Shown in pieces: positions 20,247 through 50,463 of a DNA stretch of 64,000 nt. The notes under the pieces are model-generated. The model saw only the letters and a program-made list of their open reading frames with translations. It did not search any database and had not been told where the DNA came from. Position 1 is the stretch's first letter; the number at the start of each line of letters is the position of its first letter. This stretch comes from an uncultured Aequorivita sp. Lineage in GTDB: Bacteria > Bacteroidota > Bacteroidia > Flavobacteriales > Flavobacteriaceae. A program made the translations under genes and the position numbers. The stretch lies in contig CAKZLK010000022.1 in assembly GCA_937125455.1 (NCBI GenBank), positions 1 through 64,000 of the forward strand. The letters are read 5' to 3'.

Positions 20247-20792
20247 TTGAGAAAACTCTTTATTAAATATAAAACCGTCATTCGTTTCGTATCGCTATTT
20301 CTAGGCACTTATTTGTTTCTCGGTATTATTTACTCCACTTATTTGAAAGTTTCTGAAAACGGTTCGTATTATCCAGATTATATTACAAATCTTGTAGCAA
20401 AACAAAGTGCTGCGGTGCTAGATGGTTTTGGCTATAGCCCCATTTTAAGAATGGATGAAATAGGAAAAAGTATGTTGTTGACCATTGATAACAAATACAC
20501 GGTAAGTATTGTAGAAGGATGCAATTCCGTCAGTGTTATTATTTTATTTGTGGCTTTTGTAATCGCTTTCGCGGAAAAATTTAAAAAAACAGTATTGTTC
20601 CTTTTTGCAGGAGCAGTTTTGATTTACGTTGTAAATATATTGCGAATTGCTATTTTGGCTGTTGCTTTATACAAGCATCCAGATTACGAAAACATACTTC
20701 ATTCGGTCATTTTTCCTGGTATAATATACAGCATGGTTTTTGTTTTATGGATGATATGGGTGCGAATGCTGAAACCAAACTCGGCAAAATGA
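20247..20792 (+). CDS. xrtF: Exosortase family protein XrtF
   Basis: 181 residues, beginning with TTG at 20247 (no in-frame ATG until about residue 69, inside the conserved part). Integral membrane protein with four or five helices. The exosortase active-site residues can be placed: Cys 92 in VEGCNSVSV, Arg 133 in VNILRIAI, His 152 in ILHSVIFPG. Exosortases cut and transfer proteins bearing C-terminal PEP-CTERM-like tails. The F type is restricted to Bacteroidetes and its substrates are poorly known. The next gene overlaps by 4 bases and encodes its usual partner. Confidence 0.9.
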   Translation: MRKLFIKYKTVIRFVSLFLGTYLFLGIIYSTYLKVSENGSYYPDYITNLVAKQSAAVLDGFGYSPILRMDEIGKSMLLTIDNKYTVSIVEGCNSVSVIILFVAFVIAFAEKFKKTVLFLFAGAVLIYVVNILRIAILAVALYKHPDYENILHSVIFPGIIYSMVFVLWMIWVRMLKPNSAK

Positions 20793-21223
20793 AAAACACC
20801 TTAAAAACACTGGTTATCATACTGTTGGCTAGTCTATTGGTGCTTATCAGGGCTTTTGAAAACACATTGTTTTACGATCCCCTTTTAGAGTTTTTCAAAA
20901 TGGGTTACAAAACTATGCCACTTCCCGAAATGAATGTCTTTTTACTACAAGCCAATATTGCACTTCGGTTTTTATTAAATACGCTTATTTCACTTGCAAT
21001 TCTGTGGTTGGTTTTTCGGGATAAGGAAATAATTAAAATCTCAGTGATTCTTTATGTTTTGTTATTTATATTCCTATTTACGACTTTCATTGTCATTGTT
21101 TTAACTTCCGAAGGAACTGGCGGTCACCTGGTTTTGTTCTATGTGCGTAGATTTCTGATTCAACCTTTATTCCTGCTTATTTTGCTTCCCGCTTTTTATT
21201 TTCAGAGATATAAAACCCGATGA
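20789..21223 (+). CDS. Exosortase F system-associated membrane protein
   Basis: I start it at ATG 20789, which overlaps the xrtF stop as ATGA and gives 144 residues beginning MKNTLKTLVIILLAS. A start at 20747 would overlap by 46 bases. Four membrane helices with the conserved FENTLFYDPLLEFFK and GGHLVLFYVRRFLIQPLF segments, matching the small protein that accompanies XrtF in flavobacteria. Role unknown; its fixed position suggests a partner or chaperone of the exosortase. Confidence 0.82.
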   Translation: MKNTLKTLVIILLASLLVLIRAFENTLFYDPLLEFFKMGYKTMPLPEMNVFLLQANIALRFLLNTLISLAILWLVFRDKEIIKISVILYVLLFIFLFTTFIVIVLTSEGTGGHLVLFYVRRFLIQPLFLLILLPAFYFQRYKTR

Positions 21224-21255: not shown

Positions 21256-21810
21256 ATGATTATGAAAAATTTATACTTGGTTTTTTTCGGAATTGTTTCA
21301 TTGACAATTTTTTCCTGTAAAAACAACTCAAAGGAAAGTAAACTTGAAGATGCAACAGTTGAAAATATAGCATCTGAAACAAAAACCTATGAAATAGCAA
21401 AAGCTGAAGCAGAGTTTAACGACCCAAAAGTGGAGGCTATTTTTGAAGTATATCTTCAAGTTGAAGCTGCTTTAGTTAATACTGACGCTTCCAAAACTGC
21501 CGCAGAATCTGCAAAGCTTGAAGCCCTTCTTAAAGAAGTAAATGCCAGCGGGGTAACCCAAAGCGTGGTTTCTGTAATGGCTTCTTCAGATGATATTAAC
21601 GTTCAGCGCGAAAATTTTGAAGATTTGAGTAACGGTATTGAAACTATTCTAAAAGGTGCACTTAAATCGGGAACTCTATACAAACAATATTGTCCAATGG
21701 CTTTCAACAACAAAGGAGCTTACTGGATTAGCAGTAGCGAAGAAATCCTAAACCCTTATTTTGGTGATAAAATGCTGAAATGCGGAAGAGTAGATTCTGA
21801 AGTGAAATAA
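21256..21810 (+). CDS. DUF3347-domain lipoprotein, copper-locus associated
   Basis: 184 residues (or 182 from ATG 21262). Lipoprotein signal with Cys in IFSCKNNS. Residues about 55-180 match DUF3347: helices containing IFEVYLQVEAALVNTDASK and the closing segment YKQYCPMAFNNKGAYWISSSEEILNPYFG, with a Cys-Pro-Met that could bind Cu(I). DUF3347 proteins and domains are commonly found beside CusB-type efflux proteins and copper ATPases. It opens the copper locus. Role inferred as periplasmic metal binding. Confidence 0.8.
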   Translation: MIMKNLYLVFFGIVSLTIFSCKNNSKESKLEDATVENIASETKTYEIAKAEAEFNDPKVEAIFEVYLQVEAALVNTDASKTAAESAKLEALLKEVNASGVTQSVVSVMASSDDINVQRENFEDLSNGIETILKGALKSGTLYKQYCPMAFNNKGAYWISSSEEILNPYFGDKMLKCGRVDSEVK

Positions 21811-21823
21811 TATAATTTTTAAC

Positions 21824-22213
21824 ATGCTGAAAAAGCTATTTGCCATTAGCTTCTTTTTAATAATTGCCGCTCGCCCGGGATATACGGTTGGTTATTTACT
21901 TTATTTTCAGCTTAATGTTGATTCGATTGTCCAAAAATACTGTGTCAACAAGGATAAGCCGCAAATGCACTGTAACGGGAAGTGCCATTTAGCGCAACAA
22001 CTAAATCTTGATAAGGAAAACAACACGGCGCCAAACCGTGCAGTGGAATCTTTTTTGGAAGCTTTTTTTCCACTTTTCTGTCAATCAAATGAATCTAGTT
22101 TACCAAAACCTTTTGTTGCATTTCAAGCACTTTTAAATTTTGATTTAATTTCCTCAAAACCATCAAGTTTTATTGGTGAAATAGACCATCCCCCGCAAGT
22201 TTTTATTTCATAA
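21824..22213 (+). CDS. Small exported Cys-rich protein of the copper locus
   Basis: 129 residues. An N-terminal hydrophobic segment (about 4-29) is followed by a conserved-looking Cys/His motif: Cys 40 in VQKYC, then MHCNGKCHL with Cys 50 and Cys 54 flanked by His 49 and His 55. I have seen similar small proteins near metal-related TonB receptor genes in Bacteroidetes but know no assigned function. It starts 13 bases after the DUF3347 gene. The motif could bind Cu(I) or form a disulfide. Confidence 0.7.
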   Translation: MLKKLFAISFFLIIAARPGYTVGYLLYFQLNVDSIVQKYCVNKDKPQMHCNGKCHLAQQLNLDKENNTAPNRAVESFLEAFFPLFCQSNESSLPKPFVAFQALLNFDLISSKPSSFIGEIDHPPQVFIS

Positions 22214-22424
22214 ATATTTAATTTAAAACTAGCTATAACAGGTTTGCACTTTTGCTTTATCTGTTTTACATCACGCAGCTATATGCTATAATGATGGGCA
22301 GTCAATAATTATTTTTAACTAAAATCATAATTTTAAAATTTTAAAAGTGTTCTGTTTAAGATTGATTAAACTTTTACGACTGAGCAGAATATTCAATTTA
22401 ATAAAACTCAAAACAACATTTAGT

Positions 22425-22853
22425 ATGAAAAATTTAATTTGGTTAGGACTCGTAATAGTATTTATGAGCTCTTGTAATGATAAAGAAAAAAGTGAGGTAG
22501 CACCTCAAACTAATGAAATTACTCAGATGCAAAAGGTTGTAGCTGTTCACGATGCGCTAATGCCTAAAATGAGTACAATTGGTCAATTGAGCGGAAAAAT
22601 CCAAGCCAGTATGAATGTGGAAAATCCTGATAGCACAAAAGTTAGAGTCGTGGATGAATTAAAAACAGCAAATTCAGCTATGATGGACTGGATGAAGAGC
22701 TTTGGAGAAAATTTCACTTTTGAAGAAATCAATAAAGGCGCGCCACTTTCTGAAGAAAAACAAGAATTACTAAAAAGTTATGAAAATAGCGTCAACGAAT
22801 TGCAAAAGCAAATGAATACAGCTATTGAAAACGGAAAGAAGGTAATGGAGTAA
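22425..22853 (+). CDS. Small helical lipoprotein, unknown function
   Basis: I start it at ATG 22425 (142 residues), because the lipoprotein signal MKNLIWLGLVIVFMSSC begins there; 26 extra residues from an upstream start would spoil it. After the Cys, the protein is polar and helical, with Met-rich stretches (DALMPKMSTIGQLSGKIQ) and a long amphipathic C-terminal helix. No enzyme motif. It lies within the copper locus, ahead of a strong terminator, and is probably periplasmic-facing. Confidence 0.72.
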   Translation: MKNLIWLGLVIVFMSSCNDKEKSEVAPQTNEITQMQKVVAVHDALMPKMSTIGQLSGKIQASMNVENPDSTKVRVVDELKTANSAMMDWMKSFGENFTFEEINKGAPLSEEKQELLKSYENSVNELQKQMNTAIENGKKVME

Positions 22854-22889
22854 AAAGAACTAACGTTTTATAGACAAATCTTTAATTTG

Positions 22890-22920
22890 GCCTCCCCATA
22901 AGTGGGGAGGCTTTTTTTTT
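22890..22920 (+). terminator. Rho-independent terminator
   Basis: GCCTCCCC (22890-22897) pairs perfectly with GGGGAGGC (22904-22911), followed by a long T-run. It splits the copper locus into two transcripts; the promoter of the next gene follows directly. Confidence 0.9.
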
Positions 22921-22921
22921 G

Positions 22922-22929
22922 TATTTTTG
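22922..22929 (+). promoter_or_regulatory. Candidate -7 element for the HYC_CC_PP gene and copper operon
   Basis: TATTTTTG matches TAnnTTTG exactly and ends only 7 bases before the ATG at 22937. Transcription would begin a few bases before, or at, the start codon. No clear -33 element; that position falls in the preceding terminator. Confidence 0.45.
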
Positions 22930-22936
22930 TGCTTAA

Positions 22937-23356
22937 ATGAAAAAAGCTATTTCCATATTTCTTTCCATATTGATGCTAGCCAGTAGCTCAGGTATTGCCT
23001 ATGCGCAGCACTTCTGCAATGGGATGGAAATGATGGCTGAAGTTACCTTGGGAGAAAAACATCTTTCCTGTGGAATGGAGATCAGTTTCTCAGATTCAAA
23101 TTGCAGTGAAGAAACTGTTGTAGCTGAAACTCACGATTGTTGTAAAAACCATATTACGAAAGTAAAAACAGACAATAGTTTTGCAAAGGCTTCATTTGAT
23201 GTAAAACTTGACAAAACCTTTCTAGCTACGTTTGTTTCAGTTTTTGTTCTACATGAGTTTGAAATAGCTTCTTCTCAAAAAATCTTCTTCACGGATTACG
23301 GTCCGCCGCCACTCGAACGGGATTTGAATATTCTGTACGAGACATTCCTGATTTGA
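22937..23356 (+). CDS. HYC_CC_PP family exported protein
   Basis: 139 residues, signal peptide to about residue 23 (SGIAYA-Q). The three marks of the family are present: HFC (25-27) right after the cleavage site, vicinal Cys 68-Cys 69 in HDCCKN, and GPPPLER near the C terminus, with further Cys 45 and Cys 56. Function is not established. The Cys/His/Met content and position next to a multicopper oxidase suggest a periplasmic Cu(I)-binding protein. Confidence 0.85.
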   Translation: MKKAISIFLSILMLASSSGIAYAQHFCNGMEMMAEVTLGEKHLSCGMEISFSDSNCSEETVVAETHDCCKNHITKVKTDNSFAKASFDVKLDKTFLATFVSVFVLHEFEIASSQKIFFTDYGPPPLERDLNILYETFLI

Positions 23357-23360
23357 TAAC

Positions 23361-23378
23361 TACCTGCGAAGGCAGGTA
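23361..23378. repeat. Perfect palindromic hairpin between copper genes
   Basis: TACCTGC (23361-23367) and GCAGGTA (23372-23378) flank a GAAG loop. It lies in the 84-base gap before the oxidase gene. The CCTGCGAAGGCAGG core resembles palindromes I recall as dispersed in flavobacterial genomes. No T-run follows, so it is not a standard terminator; it may be a repeat element or an RNA-stabilising hairpin. Confidence 0.6.
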
Positions 23379-23440
23379 TCTCATGATTAAAACTCCACTT
23401 TTGTTTGGGGTAATTTCTCATATTCAATCAAATCTAAAAA

Positions 23441-25720
23441 ATGAAATACAAATTAATAATAACCTTATTCTTGAATTTGGTTTTTCTGAACTATTCCTAT
23501 TCACAGGAAAAAGAGGAAGAAAAACCCATTCGGGAATATACTTTAACTATAGAAAAACAAACCGTAAACTTCACGGGAAAAGATGTGATGGGTATGACCG
23601 TAAATGGAAGTATTCCTGGACCAACCCTTGCATTTACTGAAGGCGAACAAGCCGTAATACACGTAATCAATAAAATGGACGTGGAGACTTCCGTTCATTG
23701 GCACGGATTATTATTGCCAAACTTTCAGGATGGAGTACCGTATTTAACTACACCGCCCATACAACCGGGCACCACTTTTACGTATAATTTTCCCATAAAA
23801 CAATCTGGAACCTATTGGTACCATTCGCATACTATGTTACAAGAACAGAGTGGTGTGTTTGGTTCTATCGTAATTCAACCGAAAAAGAAAACCTTAGATT
23901 ATGATAAGGAATTGGTTTTAATGCTTTCCGATTGGACCAATGAAAAACCAAAGGAAGTAATGCGCACCTTAAAGCGAGGTAGCGAATGGTATGGCATTAA
24001 AAAAGGAACTTCTACGCCGCTTAACCAAGTAATTGGCCGCGGTGCATTTGGTGCCCAACTTGATTTCTGGCGCCAACGAATGGAGGGTGCCGACATTGCA
24101 GATATTTACTATCCAGCATTTTTAATAAACGGTAAACAAGTAGCAGAATATCCAGATTTTAAACCGGGTGAAAAAGTTCGGTTGCGAATCATTGATGGTT
24201 CCTCTTCAACTCAATTCTGGATGACTTTTGGAGGTGAAACACCGTTGTTGGTTTCAGCAGACGGACTTGATGTTGCGCCTGTTAAAAGAAAAAAAACGTT
24301 CATCGCCATTGCTGAAGCTTATGATTTTATCGTGACTATTCCAGAAAGAGGAAAACTGGAGTTTAGGGCAATGGCACAAGATGGTTCCGGTACTGCTTTT
24401 GCTTATTTGGGTAGTGGAGAAACTCTGCCAGCACCAATTATCGAAAAACCTGATAAAATTGCGATGATGCAGAAAATGGCAAAAATGAAGATGAAAATGG
24501 GGGCGCATGCCATAAAGTTTCAGCCAAAAAAGGATGAACGTTTTGAAATGAAGGAAGAATATGGGATGAAAATGAAACATTCAATGGGAATGCCTAGTGA
24601 TTCTTTGAAAATGGATCATTCTAAAATGAAGATGCCGATGGATTCTATGAAAAAGCAGCATTCAAAAATGAAAATGGATGCCAAACCCATGCAAATGGAC
24701 GGTATGGGTATGAATTCAGAATATAATTATGATTATCTGAAATCACCCGAAAAAACTAGTTATTCCAAAGAAGTTCCCGTTACAGAAATTCTTTTGAATC
24801 TAACCGGAAATATGAACCGATACATTTGGAGTATGAACGGTGTGCCGCTTTCGGAGACCGATAATATCAAAATAAAGGGAAACGAAGTAACCCGTATTAC
24901 CTTAAATAACCTGACCATGATGCACCACCCGATGCACCTTCACGGTCATTTTTTTAGGGTAATTAATGAAAATGGTGATTATTCGCCTTTAAAACACACC
25001 GTGAATGTTCCACCAATGAAACAAATTACCATTGAGTTTTATGGGGATGCCTATGGTGATTGGTTTTTTCATTGCCATGTACTATATCATATGATGGGGG
25101 GAATGGCTCGTGTCTTTAGCTACGATACTCCTCGTGATGAAAGATTAAAAGAGTATCCAATTTCAAAATTGATGAATGAGGCCAATCACTTTTATTCTTG
25201 GGGTTCAGTAGATGTGGCTTCACATATGGCGGGATTAAATTTTACAACGTCCAATTTAAGAAACCAATTCAACGTAATGGCTGAATATGGATGGAATCAA
25301 AATTTAGAAGCTGAGGTTAGCTATGAACGCTATTTACATGATTATTTACGTGTTTTTGGAGGAATAAATGTCGAAAATGGAATGGAGGACAGCCTTGATG
25401 AAATTGAAACTACTGCTATAGTTGGAGTTCGTTATTTAACACCTTATTTGTTTAACTTAGATGTTAGAGTAGATAATAAACTGCGTCCACAAATTGGATT
25501 AGAACGTGATATAATGATTTTCGCTCGAACAATTGCCTTTGGAATGGTAGAGTATCAAGCTGATTTTGGTTTGGTAGATAAGTTGCCCACAGGAATTATT
25601 TACGGTGACGATTTAACTTGGAAAGCTGGCCTCAGGTATTTCCTTTCCAAAAATTTTTCCCTTATGGGAAGTTATGACAGCCGTTTTGGAGCCGGGGGTG
25701 GAATAACAATGAGATTTTAG
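23441..25720 (+). CDS. Multicopper oxidase (CopA-like) fused to a CopB-like barrel
   Basis: 759 residues with a signal peptide (about 1-21). Cupredoxin domains carry all four copper motifs: HWH 86-88, HSH 128-130, HHPMHLHGH 495-503, and HCHVLYHMMGGM from His 544 with type-1 ligands Cys 545, His 550 and a Met about 5 later. A Met/His/Lys-rich insert (about 340-425) is typical of cuprous oxidases. After about residue 575 comes a CopB-like outer-membrane segment: ASHMAGLNFTTSNLRNQ, then barrel strands ending GAGGGITMRF. Likely oxidises Cu(I) at the outer membrane. Usual CopA and CopB are separate proteins. Confidence 0.9.
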   Translation: MKYKLIITLFLNLVFLNYSYSQEKEEEKPIREYTLTIEKQTVNFTGKDVMGMTVNGSIPGPTLAFTEGEQAVIHVINKMDVETSVHWHGLLLPNFQDGVPYLTTPPIQPGTTFTYNFPIKQSGTYWYHSHTMLQEQSGVFGSIVIQPKKKTLDYDKELVLMLSDWTNEKPKEVMRTLKRGSEWYGIKKGTSTPLNQVIGRGAFGAQLDFWRQRMEGADIADIYYPAFLINGKQVAEYPDFKPGEKVRLRIIDGSSSTQFWMTFGGETPLLVSADGLDVAPVKRKKTFIAIAEAYDFIVTIPERGKLEFRAMAQDGSGTAFAYLGSGETLPAPIIEKPDKIAMMQKMAKMKMKMGAHAIKFQPKKDERFEMKEEYGMKMKHSMGMPSDSLKMDHSKMKMPMDSMKKQHSKMKMDAKPMQMDGMGMNSEYNYDYLKSPEKTSYSKEVPVTEILLNLTGNMNRYIWSMNGVPLSETDNIKIKGNEVTRITLNNLTMMHHPMHLHGHFFRVINENGDYSPLKHTVNVPPMKQITIEFYGDAYGDWFFHCHVLYHMMGGMARVFSYDTPRDERLKEYPISKLMNEANHFYSWGSVDVASHMAGLNFTTSNLRNQFNVMAEYGWNQNLEAEVSYERYLHDYLRVFGGINVENGMEDSLDEIETTAIVGVRYLTPYLFNLDVRVDNKLRPQIGLERDIMIFARTIAFGMVEYQADFGLVDKLPTGIIYGDDLTWKAGLRYFLSKNFSLMGSYDSRFGAGGGITMRF

Positions 25721-25722
25721 TT

Positions 25723-26949
25723 ATGGAGGAGTTTCTAAAAAAATGGGGAGAAGCCGCATACACAACAACCGGATTTTTCTGGATGGCACTTTGGGCTTTC
25801 GTTTTGGGCTATATTATTAGCAGTATGATACAGGTTTTTGTAACCGAAAAGCGGATGCAAAAAACAATGGGGGAAGACGAAAACAAAAGTGTGCTTTTGG
25901 GTACATTTTTTGGCTTTATCAGTAGCTCGTGCAGCTTTGCCGCGTTGGCCAGCACCAAATCACTTTTTAAGAAAGGAGCGAGCTTTATTTCATCGATTGC
26001 ATTTTTATTGGCTTCTACTAATCTTGTAATTGAACTGGGGATAATAATTTCTATTTTTCTGGGCTGGCAGTTTGTAGTTGGTGAATATGTTGGTGGAATT
26101 ATTCTGATTTTGATCGGTTGGTTGTTGATTCGAATAATAAACCCAAAAAAACTCATTGAAAAAGCCCGAAAAAACTTGAAAGACAATGAAGCTGAGGAAG
26201 AACAAGTTGATAGCGATTGGAAACAAAAAATAACATCTGAAAAAGGCTGGGCAAAAGTTGGTAAAAAGTATAAAATGGAGTGGGGAATGGTTTGGAAAGA
26301 CGTAACCGTAGGTTTTACCATTGCAGGAATTGTTGCTGTTTTTATTCCAGACTCCTTCTTTCAGGCATTATTTATAAATAGCGGAAATGGAAATACGGAT
26401 TTCAGTTTTTTTGAAATTTTGGAACACATCATCATTGGTCCTGTAGCTGCGTTTCTAACCTTTATCGGCTCAATGGGAAATATTCCCTTAGCAGCATTAC
26501 TTTTTGGAAAAGGTGTAAGTTTTGCAGGTGTAATGGCCTTTATTTTTAGTGACTTGGTGGTTTTTCCAATTTTGCGGATCAACGCGAAATACTACGGTTG
26601 GAAAATGAGTTTATTTATTCTTTTTCTGTTATTTACGTCATTGATTGGTGCTTCGTTGACATTACATTACGCTTTTGACATTTTCGGCGTATTGCCGGAT
26701 CCTTCGCAGGTTAAAATAACCGATAGTGAATATTTCAAACTCAATTATACCTTCTATCTAAACATTGCTTTTTTAATCGTTTCCGGACTTTTAATTTATC
26801 TCGGTTTCTTCAGAAATAAAGGTGTTAAGTACAAAATGTCTGAAATGGCACCCAAAAGCAAATTGCTCGAAAATATTTTGAAATATACCGCCTTTGTCTG
26901 CTATTTATGGATAGCTGGTGGATTAATAGTTAAATTCTTCATCAATTAA
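25723..26949 (+). CDS. Predicted permease, ArsP_1/DUF318 family
   Basis: 408 residues, eight to ten membrane helices. Two repeat-like halves: the first with [40 protein letters not shown] (Cys 70 in the loop, split here for length), the second with [32 protein letters not shown] charged cytoplasmic loop (about 145-195) lies between. ArsP_1 members export organoarsenicals or are of unknown specificity. It is 2 bases after the oxidase gene and 4 before the copper ATPase, so transport of copper or a copper complex is a fair inference, not shown. Confidence 0.82.
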
Positions 26950-26953
26950 AATT

Positions 26954-29473
26954 ATGAAACACACATATAAAATATACGGAATGACTTGCAACGGCTGCAG
27001 AGGCCACGTAGAAAAAACCTTGAGTGAAGTTGAAGGTGTTTCCAAAGCATCGGTAAATCTTGAAAGAGCCGAAGCAAGTATCGAAATGGAAAAACATATT
27101 CCATTAAAAGTTTTCCAAAAAGCTTTGGAAGACGATGGGGGGAGGTATAGCATTTCCCTTCTTAATGATTTAGAAGCTGCACAAAATCATCAAAAGAAAA
27201 AGGAAGAGAAACGAGCAAAGCAAAGCAGTTCTGGCACCTTCTACTGCCCGATGCACTGTGAGGGCGAAAAAACCTATAATAAGCCAGGTGATTGCCCGGT
27301 TTGCGGAATGGATTTGGTGGAAGAAGCCAAAACTTCAGCCAATAATGTTGCCGAATTTACCTGCCCAATGCATTCTGAAGTAGTTCGGGACGAACCAGGT
27401 TCCTGTCCCATTTGTGGAATGGATTTGGTTCCCAAAGAAGTGGACGATTCTGCCGAAAATAAGACGTATAAAACCTTACTGAATAAATTTTGGATTGCTG
27501 TGGCTTTCACGGTTCCTATCTTTTTGATTGCTATGTCGGAAATGATTCCAAATAACCCATTGTACGATTTGATGTCAATGGAATATTGGAACTGGGTTCA
27601 ATTTGCCTTGTCGCTACCAGTAGTTTTCTACGCTACATGGATATTTTTTGAGCGCGCCTATCGTTCCATAAAAACGTGGAATTTAAATATGTTTACCCTC
27701 ATCGGGATTGGAGCAGGAGTGGCTTGGGTGTTTAGTGTTTTTGGGATGATGTTTCCAGATTTTTTCCCCGCTCAATTTAAAACTGAATCTGGGTCTGTGC
27801 ATGTGTATTTTGAAGCTGCAACAGTAATACTCACATTGGTTTTAATGGGACAGGTTCTGGAAGCCCGTGCACACAATCGAACAAATTCAGCAGTAAAGGA
27901 GTTATTGAAATTGGCTCCAAACCAAGCAGTGCGAATTATTAACGGAAAAGAAGAAACGATTGCAATTGACAAGATACAAGTAAGCGACAAACTCCGCGTT
28001 AAACCTGGGGATAAAATTCCCGTAGACGGAAGTATTCTCGATGGTGAAAGCTCCATAGACGAGTCGATGATTACTGGTGAGCCCGTTCCCGTTTCAAAAG
28101 CGGAGGGCGATAAAGTGAGTTCCGGAACCATCAATGGCAAACAAACGTTTGTGATGACAGCCGAAAAAGTGGGGAGTGATACCTTGCTTTCTCAGATTAT
28201 CGAAATGGTAAACAAGGCAAGCCGCAGCCGTGCGCCTATTCAAAAACTGGCAGATAAAATATCAGGATGGTTTGTTCCGATCGTGGTTTTGATTTCAATT
28301 ATAACTTTTATTGTTTGGGCGGTTTTTGGGCCTGATCCAAAATACGTTTATGCTTTGGTGAATGCCATTGCAGTTTTGATAATTGCCTGTCCCTGCGCAC
28401 TCGGTCTTGCCACACCAATGTCCGTGATGGTGGGAGTAGGGAAGGGAGCCCAAAATGGGGTTCTTATCAAAAATGCTGAAGCCCTTGAAACTTTGAACAA
28501 AATCGATGTTTTAATTATTGACAAAACGGGAACTATTACCGAAGGAAAACCTTCAGTTGAAAAAGTGGGTGCTTCGGAAATTTTTTCAGAGGAAGAGGTG
28601 CTTCAATACATAGTTTCGCTCAATCAAAACAGTGAACATCCTTTGGCAGACGCTACTATAGAATATGGAAAGGCGCAGCATTCTGATCCCGAAGGTTCGG
28701 GATTAAAAACAACAAATTTTAATTCGGTTACTGGAAAAGGTGTCACCGGAATTATTGATGGAAAGAAAATAGCGCTTGGAAATAAAAAAATGATGGAAGA
28801 AGTTGGTGCAACAATTTCCGAAGTTATCCAAAAGAAAGTTTCTGAAGAACAGCAAAAGGGAAAAACTGTACCGATGCTTTCCGTGGACGGAAAAGTTGAA
28901 GGTTATATTGTTATTGCTGATAAAATTAAAGAAACCAGTAAAAAAGCAATTGCCGAGTTTCAGAAGAAAGGTGTTGAGGTTATTATGCTAACTGGCGATA
29001 ATCACGACACCGCAAAAGCAGTTGCTTTTGAATTAAACCTCGCTGATTTTAAAGCTGAAATGCTTCCTCAAAATAAGCTGGAAGTAGTTGAAAAACTTCA
29101 AGCCGACGGCAAAATGGTAGCGATGGCAGGCGACGGTATAAACGATGCGCCTGCTTTAGCAAAAAGCGATGTTGGAATTGCAATGGGAACTGGCACGGAC
29201 GTAGCCATTGAAAGTGCTAGTGTAACCTTGGTAAAAGGTGATCTTCACGGCATTGTAAAGGCTTTTCACTTAAGTGAAAAAGTAATGCGCAACATTAAAC
29301 AAAACCTATTTTTCGCTTTGATTTACAACACACTCGGAGTGCCTATTGCTGCTGGGGTTCTTTTTCCTGTTTTCGGAATTCTATTATCACCGATGATTGC
29401 TGCACTCGCTATGAGTTTCAGCTCGGTTTCGGTAATTACTAATGCATTGCGGTTGCGTGGTGCAAAAATTTAA
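26954..29473 (+). CDS. copA: Copper-exporting P1B-type ATPase
   Basis: 839 residues. An N-terminal HMA domain with GMTCNGC is followed by two heavy-metal-binding zinc-ribbon-like domains, YCPMHCEG...CPVCGMDL and FTCPMHSE...CPICGMDL (about 98-160). The ATPase core has CPC at 479-481, phosphorylated Asp 523 in [16 protein letters not shown] and [10 protein letters not shown]-terminal helices show YNTLGVP and [15 protein letters not shown], the YN and MxxSS signatures of the Cu+ (P1B-1) group. It pumps Cu+ out of the cytoplasm. It is tightly packed between the permease and the TonB receptor. Confidence 0.95.
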
Positions 29474-29476
29474 AAG

Positions 29477-31711
29477 ATGAAAAATCTATTATATATACTT
29501 TTTATACTTCCGCTCTGCGTTTTTTCACAGGAGAGAATATCGGGAACTATTACCGAAAATATTAATAATGAAGAAATACCGCTTAGTGGTGCAAACGTTT
29601 ATTGGTTAAATACTTCCGTAGGATCTGTAACCGATTTTGATGGGAATTTTGAAATTCCATATCAGCCTGAATACAAAAGCTTAGTCATCAGTTTTGTGGG
29701 ATATAAAACGGATACTATTTCGATAGGTTCCCCTAAAAGAATTACACATTCGTTGAAATCTAAAGCCAATTTGGATGAAGTAACTGTTACCGCGAGACAA
29801 AAAGCTTCCTCACGGTCATTTATACAATCTACTAATGTTTTGAATGTGAGTAGCGCCGAACTTTTGAAAGCAGCTTGCTGCAACTTAGCAGAAAGTTTTG
29901 AAACGAATCCATCCATTGACGTAAATTTTGCTGATGCTATTTCGGGAACGCGACAAATTAAAATGCTTGGACTGACCAGTCCCTATATTTTAATTACGAC
30001 TGAAAATGTCCCCAGTATCCGCGGAGCTTCACAAACGTATGGTTTAAGTTTTATCCCAGGAACTTGGGTGGAGAGTATTCAAATTACAAAAGGTGCAGGT
30101 AGTGTTGTAAATGGTTATGAAAGCATTACAGGGCAAATTAATGCTGAATTACAGAAACCATTGACAGATGATAAACTTTTTGTGAATGCATATGGTTCTG
30201 GTAATGGCCGTTTTGAGCTGAATACACATTTAAATACAAAGGTTAGCAAACGTTGGAGTACAGGGCTATATATCCATGGGAATATGCGCGAAACTGAATT
30301 TGATAAAAATAACGATTCATTTTTGGATGCGCCACTAATGCAGCAAGTAAATGTAATGAATCGCTGGCAGTATACCGATCAGGAAAATGGTTATGTCGGT
30401 TTTTTCAATTTTAGATATTTGAACGATGAAAAGCAGACGGGCCAAATATTCTACGATCCAGATAAAGATCGCGGCACCACAAATGCGTGGGGAAGCGAAA
30501 TAAAAACACAACGATTTGATCTATCAGGAAAATTTGGTTTTGTAAACCCCGATATTCCTTGGCGTACTGGTGGATTGCAACTTGCGTATAGCCACCATAA
30601 CCAAGAATCTTACTTCGGATTTAACGATTATAATATTCAGCATAACAGTTTGTATGCCAATCTGCTTTATAATTCAATCATTGCAGATTCGCGACATAAA
30701 ATAAAAACTGGATTGAGCGCAACCTATGATGGTTACGACGAATTAGTTTTGACCGAAAACTTTAGTAGGGTTGAAAACTCCGTGGGAGCATTTTTTGAAT
30801 ACAATTTTGACAATTTGGGTAATTTGAACTTTACTGCAGGAATCCGTGCCGATGTCCACAATAGGTTGGGAACTTTTATAACGCCTCGTTTCCATTTGCG
30901 CTATACTCCGTGGGATAAATCTGCTTTTAGGATTTCAGCAGGAAGAGGGAAACGGAGTGCGAATATTTTTACAGAAAACCAGCAGCTCTTTGCTACTTCA
31001 AGAAGCATAAATATTTTAAACTCTGGTGGTAGTATTTATGGATTAGACCCAGAAATTGCTTGGAATTATGGCGTTTCCTATTTGCAAGGGTTTAATATAT
31101 TCGGTAGAAAAGCTGATGTGACTTTTGATTTTTACAGAACCGATTTTGTGAACCAAATTGTGGTGGATTGGGAAAGCCCTTCGGAAGTCAGTTTTTATAA
31201 TCTGGATGGCGAAAGTTATTCTAACAATTTTCAGGTAGAGTTCAATTATAATGCTTTTGAACATTTTGACCTGAGATTAGCTTATAAATATTATGATGTG
31301 GAAACAACTTATTTCAGTGGAAAAAAACAAACACCATTAACACCGAACCATCGTTTTTTTGCAAATGCCTCCTATGAAACCCTTCAAAGCGCGAAAGGCG
31401 GAAATTGGAAGTTTGATGCAACTTTCAATTATATGGGTAAGCAACGATTTGCTTCTACAGAAAGTTATTTAAATACCATTGGGCTTTCTGAATTTTCTCC
31501 AAGTGTTTCGACTTTGAATGCTCAGGTTACAAAAGTTTTTTCATCTAATTTTGAAATCTATGTTGGTGGAGAAAACCTAACCAATGTGAAGCAGCAAAAC
31601 CCAATTGTTGGAAGTAGTAATCCATTTGGAACAACTTTTGACACTACCTATGTTTACGGACCAATTTTCGGAAGTTCTTATTATGCAGGCTTGCGATACA
31701 GTATTAATTAA
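29477..31711 (+). CDS. TonB-dependent outer-membrane receptor of the copper operon
   Basis: 744 residues: signal peptide (about 1-17), carboxypeptidase-regulatory-like domain (about 20-95), plug domain with vicinal Cys 134-Cys 135 in LLKAACCNLAESF, then a 22-strand-type barrel ending in an aromatic-rich strand (YYAGLRYSIN). It needs the proton force through TonB to move a ligand across the outer membrane. It is 3 bases after copA, so the ligand is probably copper or a copper chelate. The plug Cys pair is unusual in general but seems characteristic of this Bacteroidetes subgroup. Confidence 0.9.
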   Translation: MKNLLYILFILPLCVFSQERISGTITENINNEEIPLSGANVYWLNTSVGSVTDFDGNFEIPYQPEYKSLVISFVGYKTDTISIGSPKRITHSLKSKANLDEVTVTARQKASSRSFIQSTNVLNVSSAELLKAACCNLAESFETNPSIDVNFADAISGTRQIKMLGLTSPYILITTENVPSIRGASQTYGLSFIPGTWVESIQITKGAGSVVNGYESITGQINAELQKPLTDDKLFVNAYGSGNGRFELNTHLNTKVSKRWSTGLYIHGNMRETEFDKNNDSFLDAPLMQQVNVMNRWQYTDQENGYVGFFNFRYLNDEKQTGQIFYDPDKDRGTTNAWGSEIKTQRFDLSGKFGFVNPDIPWRTGGLQLAYSHHNQESYFGFNDYNIQHNSLYANLLYNSIIADSRHKIKTGLSATYDGYDELVLTENFSRVENSVGAFFEYNFDNLGNLNFTAGIRADVHNRLGTFITPRFHLRYTPWDKSAFRISAGRGKRSANIFTENQQLFATSRSINILNSGGSIYGLDPEIAWNYGVSYLQGFNIFGRKADVTFDFYRTDFVNQIVVDWESPSEVSFYNLDGESYSNNFQVEFNYNAFEHFDLRLAYKYYDVETTYFSGKKQTPLTPNHRFFANASYETLQSAKGGNWKFDATFNYMGKQRFASTESYLNTIGLSEFSPSVSTLNAQVTKVFSSNFEIYVGGENLTNVKQQNPIVGSSNPFGTTFDTTYVYGPIFGSSYYAGLRYSIN

Positions 31712-31735
31712 TTCAAATTCAAAACAATAAAAAAA

Positions 31736-32095
31736 ATGAAGAAAATAATTGCAATTTTAGGAATACTCTTTATGGGAGTTACGGGTTTTGCCCAAAACAA
31801 AAATGCAAAAGCCACTATAGAAGTAGATGGCATTTGCGGCATGTGTAAACAGCGAATTGAAAAAGCATCTATTCAGGCCAAAGGAGTGAAATCTGCTATT
31901 TGGGATGTGGAATCCCACGAACTGAAGCTTATTTACAACGATGGGAAAACTGATTTAACAAAAATTCAACAAAGCATTGCGGACAGTGGTCACGACACTC
32001 AAGATATAAAAGCCAAAGATGAAGTGTATGAAAATATTGATCCTTGTTGTAGGTATCGTGATCAACAAGTTATTGATGATCATAAAGACGATTGA
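31736..32095 (+). CDS. Exported heavy-metal-associated (HMA) domain protein
   Basis: 119 residues with a signal peptide (about 1-20). HMA fold (about 25-92) with the metal site GICGMCKQRIEK, Cys 34 and Cys 37 (CxxC, where most HMA domains have MxCxxC). A tail adds Cys 104-Cys 105 and a His (DPCCRYRD). It is a likely periplasmic Cu(I) carrier between the TonB receptor and the oxidase or ATPase. Last gene of the packed operon, 24 bases after the receptor. Confidence 0.88.
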   Translation: MKKIIAILGILFMGVTGFAQNKNAKATIEVDGICGMCKQRIEKASIQAKGVKSAIWDVESHELKLIYNDGKTDLTKIQQSIADSGHDTQDIKAKDEVYENIDPCCRYRDQQVIDDHKDD

Positions 32096-50128: not shown

Positions 50129-50398
50129 TTACTTACGTAATCCTAATTCTTTAACGATTGCACGGTAGCGAAGGATGTCTTTTTTCATAAGATAATCCAA
50201 CAATGATCTACGTTTTCCAACCAACATTACCAAAGAACGCTCCGTATTATAATCCTTGTGGTTTGCTTTAAGGTGTTTTGTTAAATGCGCGATGCGATAA
50301 GTGAATAAAGCAATCTGTCCTTCAGCTGAACCAGTGTCAGACTTGGACTTTCCGTGTTTAGCGAAAATTTTTTCTTTTTCTTCTTGGGATAAATACAT
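50129..50398 (-). CDS. rpsO: 30S ribosomal protein S15
   Basis: 89 residues, standard length. S15 features: GSAEGQIALFTYRIAHLTKHLKANHKDYNTERSLVMLVGKRR (split across the rRNA-binding helices) and LLDYLMKKDILRYRAIVKELGLRK at the end. Binds the 16S central domain. The rpsO-pnp gene order is kept, but a terminator sits between them. Confidence 0.97.
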   Translation of the reverse strand: MYLSQEEKEKIFAKHGKSKSDTGSAEGQIALFTYRIAHLTKHLKANHKDYNTERSLVMLVGKRRSLLDYLMKKDILRYRAIVKELGLRK

Positions 50399-50455
50399 GC
50401 CAATATTGTTAAAATGATTTTTATGTACTGACTACCGTTTTGATAATCAAGGCTG

Positions 50456-50463
50456 CAAAAGTA
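50456..50463 (-). promoter_or_regulatory. Candidate -7 element for rpsO
   Basis: The minus strand reads TACTTTTG followed by CA, an exact TAnnTTTG match, about 58 bases before the rpsO ATG. A TTG is present but 24 bases away, just outside the usual range. The leader would be about 50 bases, room for S15 autoregulation. Confidence 0.45.

Follow-up and report, generated by a model that had tools for sequence, protein, structure and literature searches.

Published abstracts describe copper passage over the Gram-negative outer membrane as unclear or poorly characterised. OprC of Pseudomonas aeruginosa is reported as a TonB-dependent importer of ionic copper with a CxxxM-HxM site (PMC8610252), and CrtA/BfrG of Bordetella pertussis as a TonB-dependent copper importer; according to the sections of its report cited here, CrtA lacks conserved Cys and Met, and a PepSY_TM gene follows it in >75% of loci (PMC12914433). 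A copper survey of Bizionia argentinensis lists an OprC-like receptor, G2EC70, and a PcoA-PcoB-like oxidase, G2EDV6; it set aside receptors without OprC similarity, and a family of the type described below is not proposed in the portions of the survey used here (PMC11213822). Here we analyze a stretch of 64,000 nucleotides (hereafter the window; contig CAKZLK010000022.1, from an uncultured Aequorivita sp.), in which nine open reading frames, all on the + strand, span 21256-32095 and include a TonB-dependent receptor, an exported protein with an HMA domain and a small exported cysteine protein of the HYC_CC_PP family (HYC in the following). From sequence comparison, we lean towards the view that these form the core of an importer of copper or of a copper chelate, in which the receptor plug would pass the metal on to a periplasmic HMA chaperone dedicated to it.

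Like OprC, the window receptor is TonB-dependent, has cysteine in its plug and has copper as its proposed cargo; unlike OprC, its family lacks CxxxM-HxM and has an HMA partner or fusion, and neither such a partner nor such a fusion appears for OprC in the cited portions of PMC8610252. In the own genome of the window organism, TIGR01778 (the OprC family) gave six matches at E 0.001; the window receptor is not among them, nor over the curated cut-off, and the best match is another receptor (G000:C15:20990), itself below that cut-off. G2EC70 also differs from the window receptor in having the OprC motif, according to the cited part of the survey (PMC11213822). Like CrtA/BfrG, the window receptor belongs to a small operon and would import copper in a TonB-dependent way, whereas its family has a CC pair in 159/159 sequences and an HMA gene 3' of the receptor; no profile search was aimed at PepSY, and the comparison is with the cited sections (PMC12914433). 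Like MerP- and CopZ-type chaperones, the window HMA protein has an HMA domain with CxxC, and unlike them it is exported, carries an extra invariant C-terminal CC and belongs to a family whose members either accompany a TonB receptor or form part of one. The components of the locus are of known kinds, and the receptor-HMA-HYC unit is filed here as a variant of TonB-dependent metal uptake. A search of the open-licence literature, without subscription papers and preprints, found no description of this unit, and no paper in it contains the family name HYC_CC_PP.

A shared core and patchy additions at the receptor locus

The features of the window locus are as follows.

21256..21810, + strand: DUF3347 lipoprotein (Pfam 38.9 bits, cut-off 25.5); lineage layer, unit 1
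21824..22213, + strand: Cys-rich small exported protein of 129 amino acids; accessory
22425..22853, + strand: small lipoprotein, with an ATG taken as its start; accessory
22889..22912, + strand: intrinsic-terminator-like hairpin of 10 pairs, 7 of them G-C, then a T-run; ends unit 1
22922..22929, + strand: TATTTTTG, -7 promoter-like element TAnnTTTG, 7 bases 5' of the HYC start codon
22937..23356, + strand: HYC_CC_PP small exported Cys protein (NCBIfam NF047658, 91.3 bits, cut-off 28); core
23441..25720, + strand: fusion of a multicopper oxidase (three Cu-oxidase domains) with a putative C-terminal beta-barrel; accessory
25723..26949, + strand: ArsP_1 permease (Pfam 193.5 bits, cut-off 32.3); accessory
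26954..29473, + strand: CopA, a Cu+ P1B-1 ATPase (TIGR01511 587.2 bits, cut-off 397); variable core slot
29477..31711, + strand: TonB-dependent receptor with CarbopepD_reg_2 and Plug domains and the plug pair C134-C135; core
31736..32095, + strand: exported HMA protein (26.3 bits, cut-off 24.8) with CxxC and a C-terminal CC; core

An initial annotation of the window had named these nine families, with gaps of 2-24 bases between the last five genes; all nine are present, and the gaps from the oxidase through ArsP, CopA and the receptor to the HMA gene measure 2, 4, 3 and 24 bases. It had also treated the nine genes as one system, a claim that comparison with relatives does not bear out.

Genus loci were fetched around the receptor in every other genome of the genus but one (26 of 27); the exception, G016, has no ortholog, which leaves a receptor ortholog in 27/28 genus genomes when the window genome is included. 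The family loci are 80, mainly one per genus, picked among the matches listed for 188 positive of 299 Flavobacteriaceae genomes, a sample in which weak matches are under-represented. Ten loci of genus g127, probably Flavobacterium, were hand-picked from the phylum list, and the outside loci are all 54 receptor matches beyond the window's family, among the 77 positive genomes of a 296-genome phylum sample. The receptor alignment excludes two genus loci, L114 and L137, and represents L272 by its best-scoring piece; viral contigs searched for further receptor sequences yielded none.

None of the 26 genus loci holds all nine genes. The HMA gene was found 3' of the receptor in all 80 family loci, 10/10 g127 loci and, by script, 24/26 genus loci; in the remaining two, L114 and L137, it lies 3' of the second receptor piece. 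HYC lies upstream of the receptor in 22/26 genus, 79/80 family (77/80 with a narrower profile) and 10/10 g127 loci. The slot between HYC and the receptor varies: among the family loci it is empty in 33, occupied by an HMA-MauE protein alone in 38 and by CopA in 6, two of which also hold HMA-MauE, while 17/26 genus loci have CopA in it. CopA itself is optional at the receptor locus, being located at most 3.2 kb before the receptor in 20/26 genus loci.

The other genes are distributed less evenly. DUF3347 is at the locus in 22/26 genus and 9/80 family loci, and a DUF326 protein beside the module in 17/26 and 3/80. The Cys-rich protein (2/26 genus, 1/80 family), the small lipoprotein (4/26, 4/80), the ArsP permease (4/26, 1/80) and the oxidase fusion (4/26 genus loci, one as two pieces) are rarer. 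By the test set in the initial annotation, conservation of the small genes near copA, the outcome is divided: DUF3347 and HYC are mostly kept, the Cys-rich protein and the small lipoprotein are not. On this comparison the core consists of HYC, a variable membrane-protein slot, the receptor and the exported HMA protein, and is old and widely shared; the oxidase-barrel fusion, the ArsP permease, the Cys-rich protein and the small lipoprotein are patchy additions to it.

The receptor frames of L114 and L137 (genomes G014 and G015) are interrupted, which may reflect decay or assembly error, and L137 also carries an interrupted oxidase frame. L138 (G016:C10), from the sole genus genome without the receptor, keeps CopA near a homologue of the window's downstream gene of 177 amino acids.

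Invariant cysteines and fusion of the HMA module to the receptor

The plug pair C134-C135 is kept in 159/159 receptor sequences and H267 in 156/159; in 101/105 genus and family receptors the pair provides the sole cysteines beyond residue 25. In the HMA protein, C34, C37, C104 and C105 are present in 106/106 sequences, and in HYC, C27, C45, C68 and C69 in 100/100 and H25 in 99/100. The receptor and HMA residues named here can now be targeted. The CC motif is missing from L109 and L111, both receptors of low similarity. The L111 receptor (G024:C28), 30% identical to that of the window, has CNVC in place of the plug-region CC and possibly belongs to another class of soft-metal receptor.

Outside Flavobacteriaceae, an HMA module is fused to the N-terminus of the receptor in 9 of the 54 loci: as a tandem double module in L219-L224, all six loci of another family of the same order, and as a single module in L226, L231 and L232. 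Pfam HMA was detected in 5/5 scanned fused receptors, with three of the matches below the curated cut-off; it gave no match in the unfused receptor L257. The fused modules inspected by eye retain both the CxxC and the C-terminal CC seen in the window HMA protein. Since the N-terminus of a TonB receptor is periplasmic, the fused HMA site would be located where metal leaves the plug. The pairing of receptor and exported HMA protein proposed in the initial annotation is strengthened by these fusions, and the receptor family comes with a likely periplasmic acceptor.

The solved sequences nearest to the HMA protein are copper ATPase and CopZ domains (1.7e-6 to 7.8e-6), with MerP behind (9.7e-4). 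For the receptor, solved relatives were limited to N-terminal-domain and weak partial matches; HYC had none, and DUF3347 chance-level matches only. AlphaFold2 models of the receptor (5 sequences, mean predicted local distance difference test score 33.9) and of HYC (42 sequences, 51.4) scored too low to use.

The core across the phylum and its exosortase F neighbours

The receptor profile has matches in 77 genomes of the phylum sample and the HYC family in 91; both occur in 54. In 43 of those genomes HYC precedes the receptor on the same strand at a distance of no more than 1.2 kb, where chance would give about 0.01. HYC_CC_PP gains a concrete partner in this unit. Of the 54 outside loci, 26 have a separate HMA protein close to the receptor by profile, and 32 have HYC. 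Apart from a YHS-domain protein that adjoins the receptor in L243 and in L256, a Pfam scan of ten module neighbours in relatives revealed no clear metal gene. In L257 and L262, whose receptors form part of a divergent subgroup, small upstream Cys proteins with WQPP-type tails replace HYC by eye; WQPP-tailed small Cys proteins also occur in L219-L224.

Within the window, a division into two rightward units split by a terminator at 22890 had been suggested, and is well supported. The hairpin at 22889-22912 is the strongest, by G-C pairs, of 14 terminator-like sites (10.9 expected), and L112, L119 and L133 show similar hairpins 5' of HYC on inspection by eye. TAnnTTTG, which we take to be the Bacteroidota-type -7 promoter consensus, occurs in the 110 bases before HYC or in its first 20 bases in 86/111 loci, whereas 50 rounds of mononucleotide shuffling gave a mean of 14.9 and a maximum of 22. 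Because of this hairpin and the enrichment of TAnnTTTG, we place the start of the second unit at HYC.

Directly before the locus, at window positions 20247-21223, lie exosortase F (XrtF; Exosortase_EpsH 31.8 bits) and its associated membrane protein (TIGR04127), and this raised the explanation that adjacency reflects genome architecture, the unit being merely a stable neighbour of the exosortase pair with a surface or biofilm role. XrtF or the XrtF-associated gene indeed lies at most 3.5 kb upstream of HYC in 22/26 genus, 58/80 family and 10/10 g127 loci; all ten of the latter hold XrtF, the XrtF-associated gene, HYC, the receptor and the HMA gene, with two other genes separating the XrtF pair from HYC in five. 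Deletion of xrtF in F. johnsoniae lowers biofilm, and the cited part of that report leaves XrtF substrates to future work (PMC10936215). We nevertheless consider this explanation very improbable: HYC has a promoter-like element of its own, the HYC-receptor pair persists in most phylum genomes with both, and no XrtF match was seen in the 54 outside loci, which extend about 4 kb upstream at most. HYC as an exosortase F substrate was dropped as a candidate, given outside-family HYC-receptor pairs without an XrtF match in the stretches examined.

Copper as the probable cargo

The copper signatures claimed for the window ATPase were confirmed: C479 and C481 of CPC, YN and MxxSS are present, along with HMA, HMBD (two stretches) and E1-E2 ATPase domains, and we presume that these motifs specify copper. 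All 28 module copies of CopA examined are P1B-1 ATPases that bear both CPC and MxxSS. On the CopA tree, 5 changes of label between module and copper island are needed, and starred branches impose at least 4 of them, which does not agree with one joining event. DUF326, presumably a four-helix copper-storage type of protein, recurs beside the module, and the fusion of DUF3347 to CusB-type proteins at other loci likewise points to copper. We also count towards copper the presence of HYC in 54 loci of the oxidase-fusion set, copper loci that represent the best 80 of 414 relatives of the window oxidase.

In the arrangement that we favour, the TonB receptor would bind copper, as ion or small chelate, and carry it across the outer membrane; the metal would then pass via C134-C135 of the plug to the CxxC of the dedicated periplasmic HMA protein, a separate neighbour in the window and an N-terminal receptor domain in some relatives. 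HYC would be an extra exported cysteine protein of the core unit, perhaps scavenging or buffering metal at the envelope. At the inner membrane, a protein with an HMA domain (CopA in the window, HMA-MauE in many relatives) may act from the cytosolic side. With the lineage additions (DUF3347, CopA, the oxidase-barrel fusion, ArsP and the two small proteins), the locus would both acquire and detoxify copper. More tentatively, and at somewhat less than even chances, Bacteroidota may own a separate class of TonB copper importers, defined by a lone plug CC, their own HMA chaperone and HYC, in which copper is handed from cysteine to cysteine and is never free.

Several results weigh against this copper importer. 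In 4/26 genus loci no HYC was detected before the receptor, and the profile missed it in 22/54 outside loci, although HYC-like frames are visible by eye in several of the latter; among the 91 phylum-sample genomes with HYC, 37 have no receptor, and HYC must therefore also work elsewhere. A separate HMA protein is lacking by profile in 28/54 outside loci, 8 of which have the fusion; the 20 with neither include the two with a YHS protein beside the receptor. As for metal ligands, outside receptors keep H374 in 37/54, M163 in 27/54 and H251 in 1/54, so that only the CC and H267 persist outside the family and no full ligand set emerges from the alignment. The OprC copper site is not in the receptors, with plug-region CxxxM in 0/159 and HxM beyond residue 200 in 3/105; the window receptor has neither. 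CopA is missing from most family slots, so that outside the genus few loci (6/80) carry the argument for copper, and 26 of the 28 module CopAs cluster in one group, together with two island copies. Co-occurrence with heme-copper oxidase offered no contrast (283/296 genomes positive), and genome G550 has the receptor, a weak HMA match and CopA without a heme-copper oxidase at E 1e-30.

Some of these results would also suit a module for the import of another soft metal, be it zinc, silver, cobalt or nickel, or of a metallophore or other general metal chelate, with copper genes added only in some lineages. HMA domains bind several soft metals, MerP also matches the HMA protein, the receptor has no OprC site, and the slot of most family loci has no copper-specific gene, being empty or filled by HMA-MauE only. 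The recurrence of CopA, DUF326, DUF3347 and Cus-type neighbours speaks against such a module, as does HYC in the copper loci of the oxidase-fusion set, and we regard it as the less probable explanation, at about one chance in four.

The oxidase fusion and other copper islands

Oxidase-fusion relatives match the window protein up to residue 758 or 759 among the best 80 of 414. The initial annotation of this protein was correct for the oxidase domains; its barrel half has weak profile matches only (CopB 13 bits, cut-off 27; OMP_b-brl 18.1, cut-off 28.7). The layout resembles that of G2EDV6, the Bizionia homologue, for which the cited part of the survey describes a PcoB-like or porin-like C-terminus (PMC11213822). 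With 417.5 bits for TIGR01480 against a curated cut-off of 478.95 (E 8.2e-125), the oxidase classifies by profile as a relative of PcoA-type copper_res_A and not as a member. Of the same best 80 loci, 4 hold the receptor, 70 DUF3347, 54 HYC, 51 a DUF305-type protein and 48 CopA. The closest named loci, L001, L002 and L007, share 86% oxidase identity with the window, whose organism is Aequorivita-like, and overlap with genus loci L117, L125 and L115, respectively. The fusion thus seems mostly to belong to other copper loci and to have joined the receptor locus in part of the genus.

This distribution bears on the route first proposed for the locus, which combined cytosolic export, periplasmic carriers, oxidation at the outer membrane and TonB-driven uptake or chelate traffic. 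Uptake and carriers appear right in outline, and oxidation and ArsP transport accessory; as the fusion usually sits elsewhere, outer-membrane oxidation coupled to the receptor would be at most an add-on in part of the genus.

It bears also on the possibility that the locus is a copper-resistance cluster, in which receptor and HMA protein serve detoxification (sensing, sequestration or efflux support) and not uptake. CopA, the oxidase fusion, DUF3347 and ArsP of the window are genes of resistance type, and we counted the usual position of the fusion in other copper loci in favor of this possibility. Yet TonB-dependent receptors import, the resistance genes vary while the receptor-HMA-HYC core persists without them, and the window genome has a separate copper island, L273, with its own HYC, a resistance-nodulation-division (RND) pump, DUF3347, ArsP and CopA. 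A pure resistance role is accordingly judged improbable, and import of copper remains the reading that we prefer.

In L003 and L004, CusB-type proteins carry a fused DUF3347 domain, and L004 also has an RND pump. The copper islands L012, L013, L017 and L028 have HYC genes in divergent pairs, some 5 to 6 kb upstream of their oxidase fusion. By tBLASTn, 26 of 3879 plasmid records carry the oxidase at >80% cover; full-length relatives on plasmids include those of Pontibacter, Spirosoma, Hymenobacter and further genera.

Among the remaining window genes, the ArsP_1 permease scored 52.7 bits against the SO_0444 Cu/Zn exporter equivalog, under the cut-off of 300. The Cys-rich protein had no family match in Pfam or NCBIfam scans, which gave sub-cut-off matches only for the small lipoprotein. 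For the latter, ATG 22425 is the more likely start over GTG 22347, judging by eye from its MKNLIW...SSC lipobox.

Short AraC-type helix-turn-helix proteins are encoded in copper islands with copA at L273:17052-17609 and L004:9362-9931. Their N-terminus looks HMA-like by eye, with MVCDRC and no Pfam HMA match, and they are candidate copper-sensing regulators. Elsewhere in the window, an S15-Flavobacteria ribosomal protein leader was detected at 50396-50463 on the - strand (65.5 bits).

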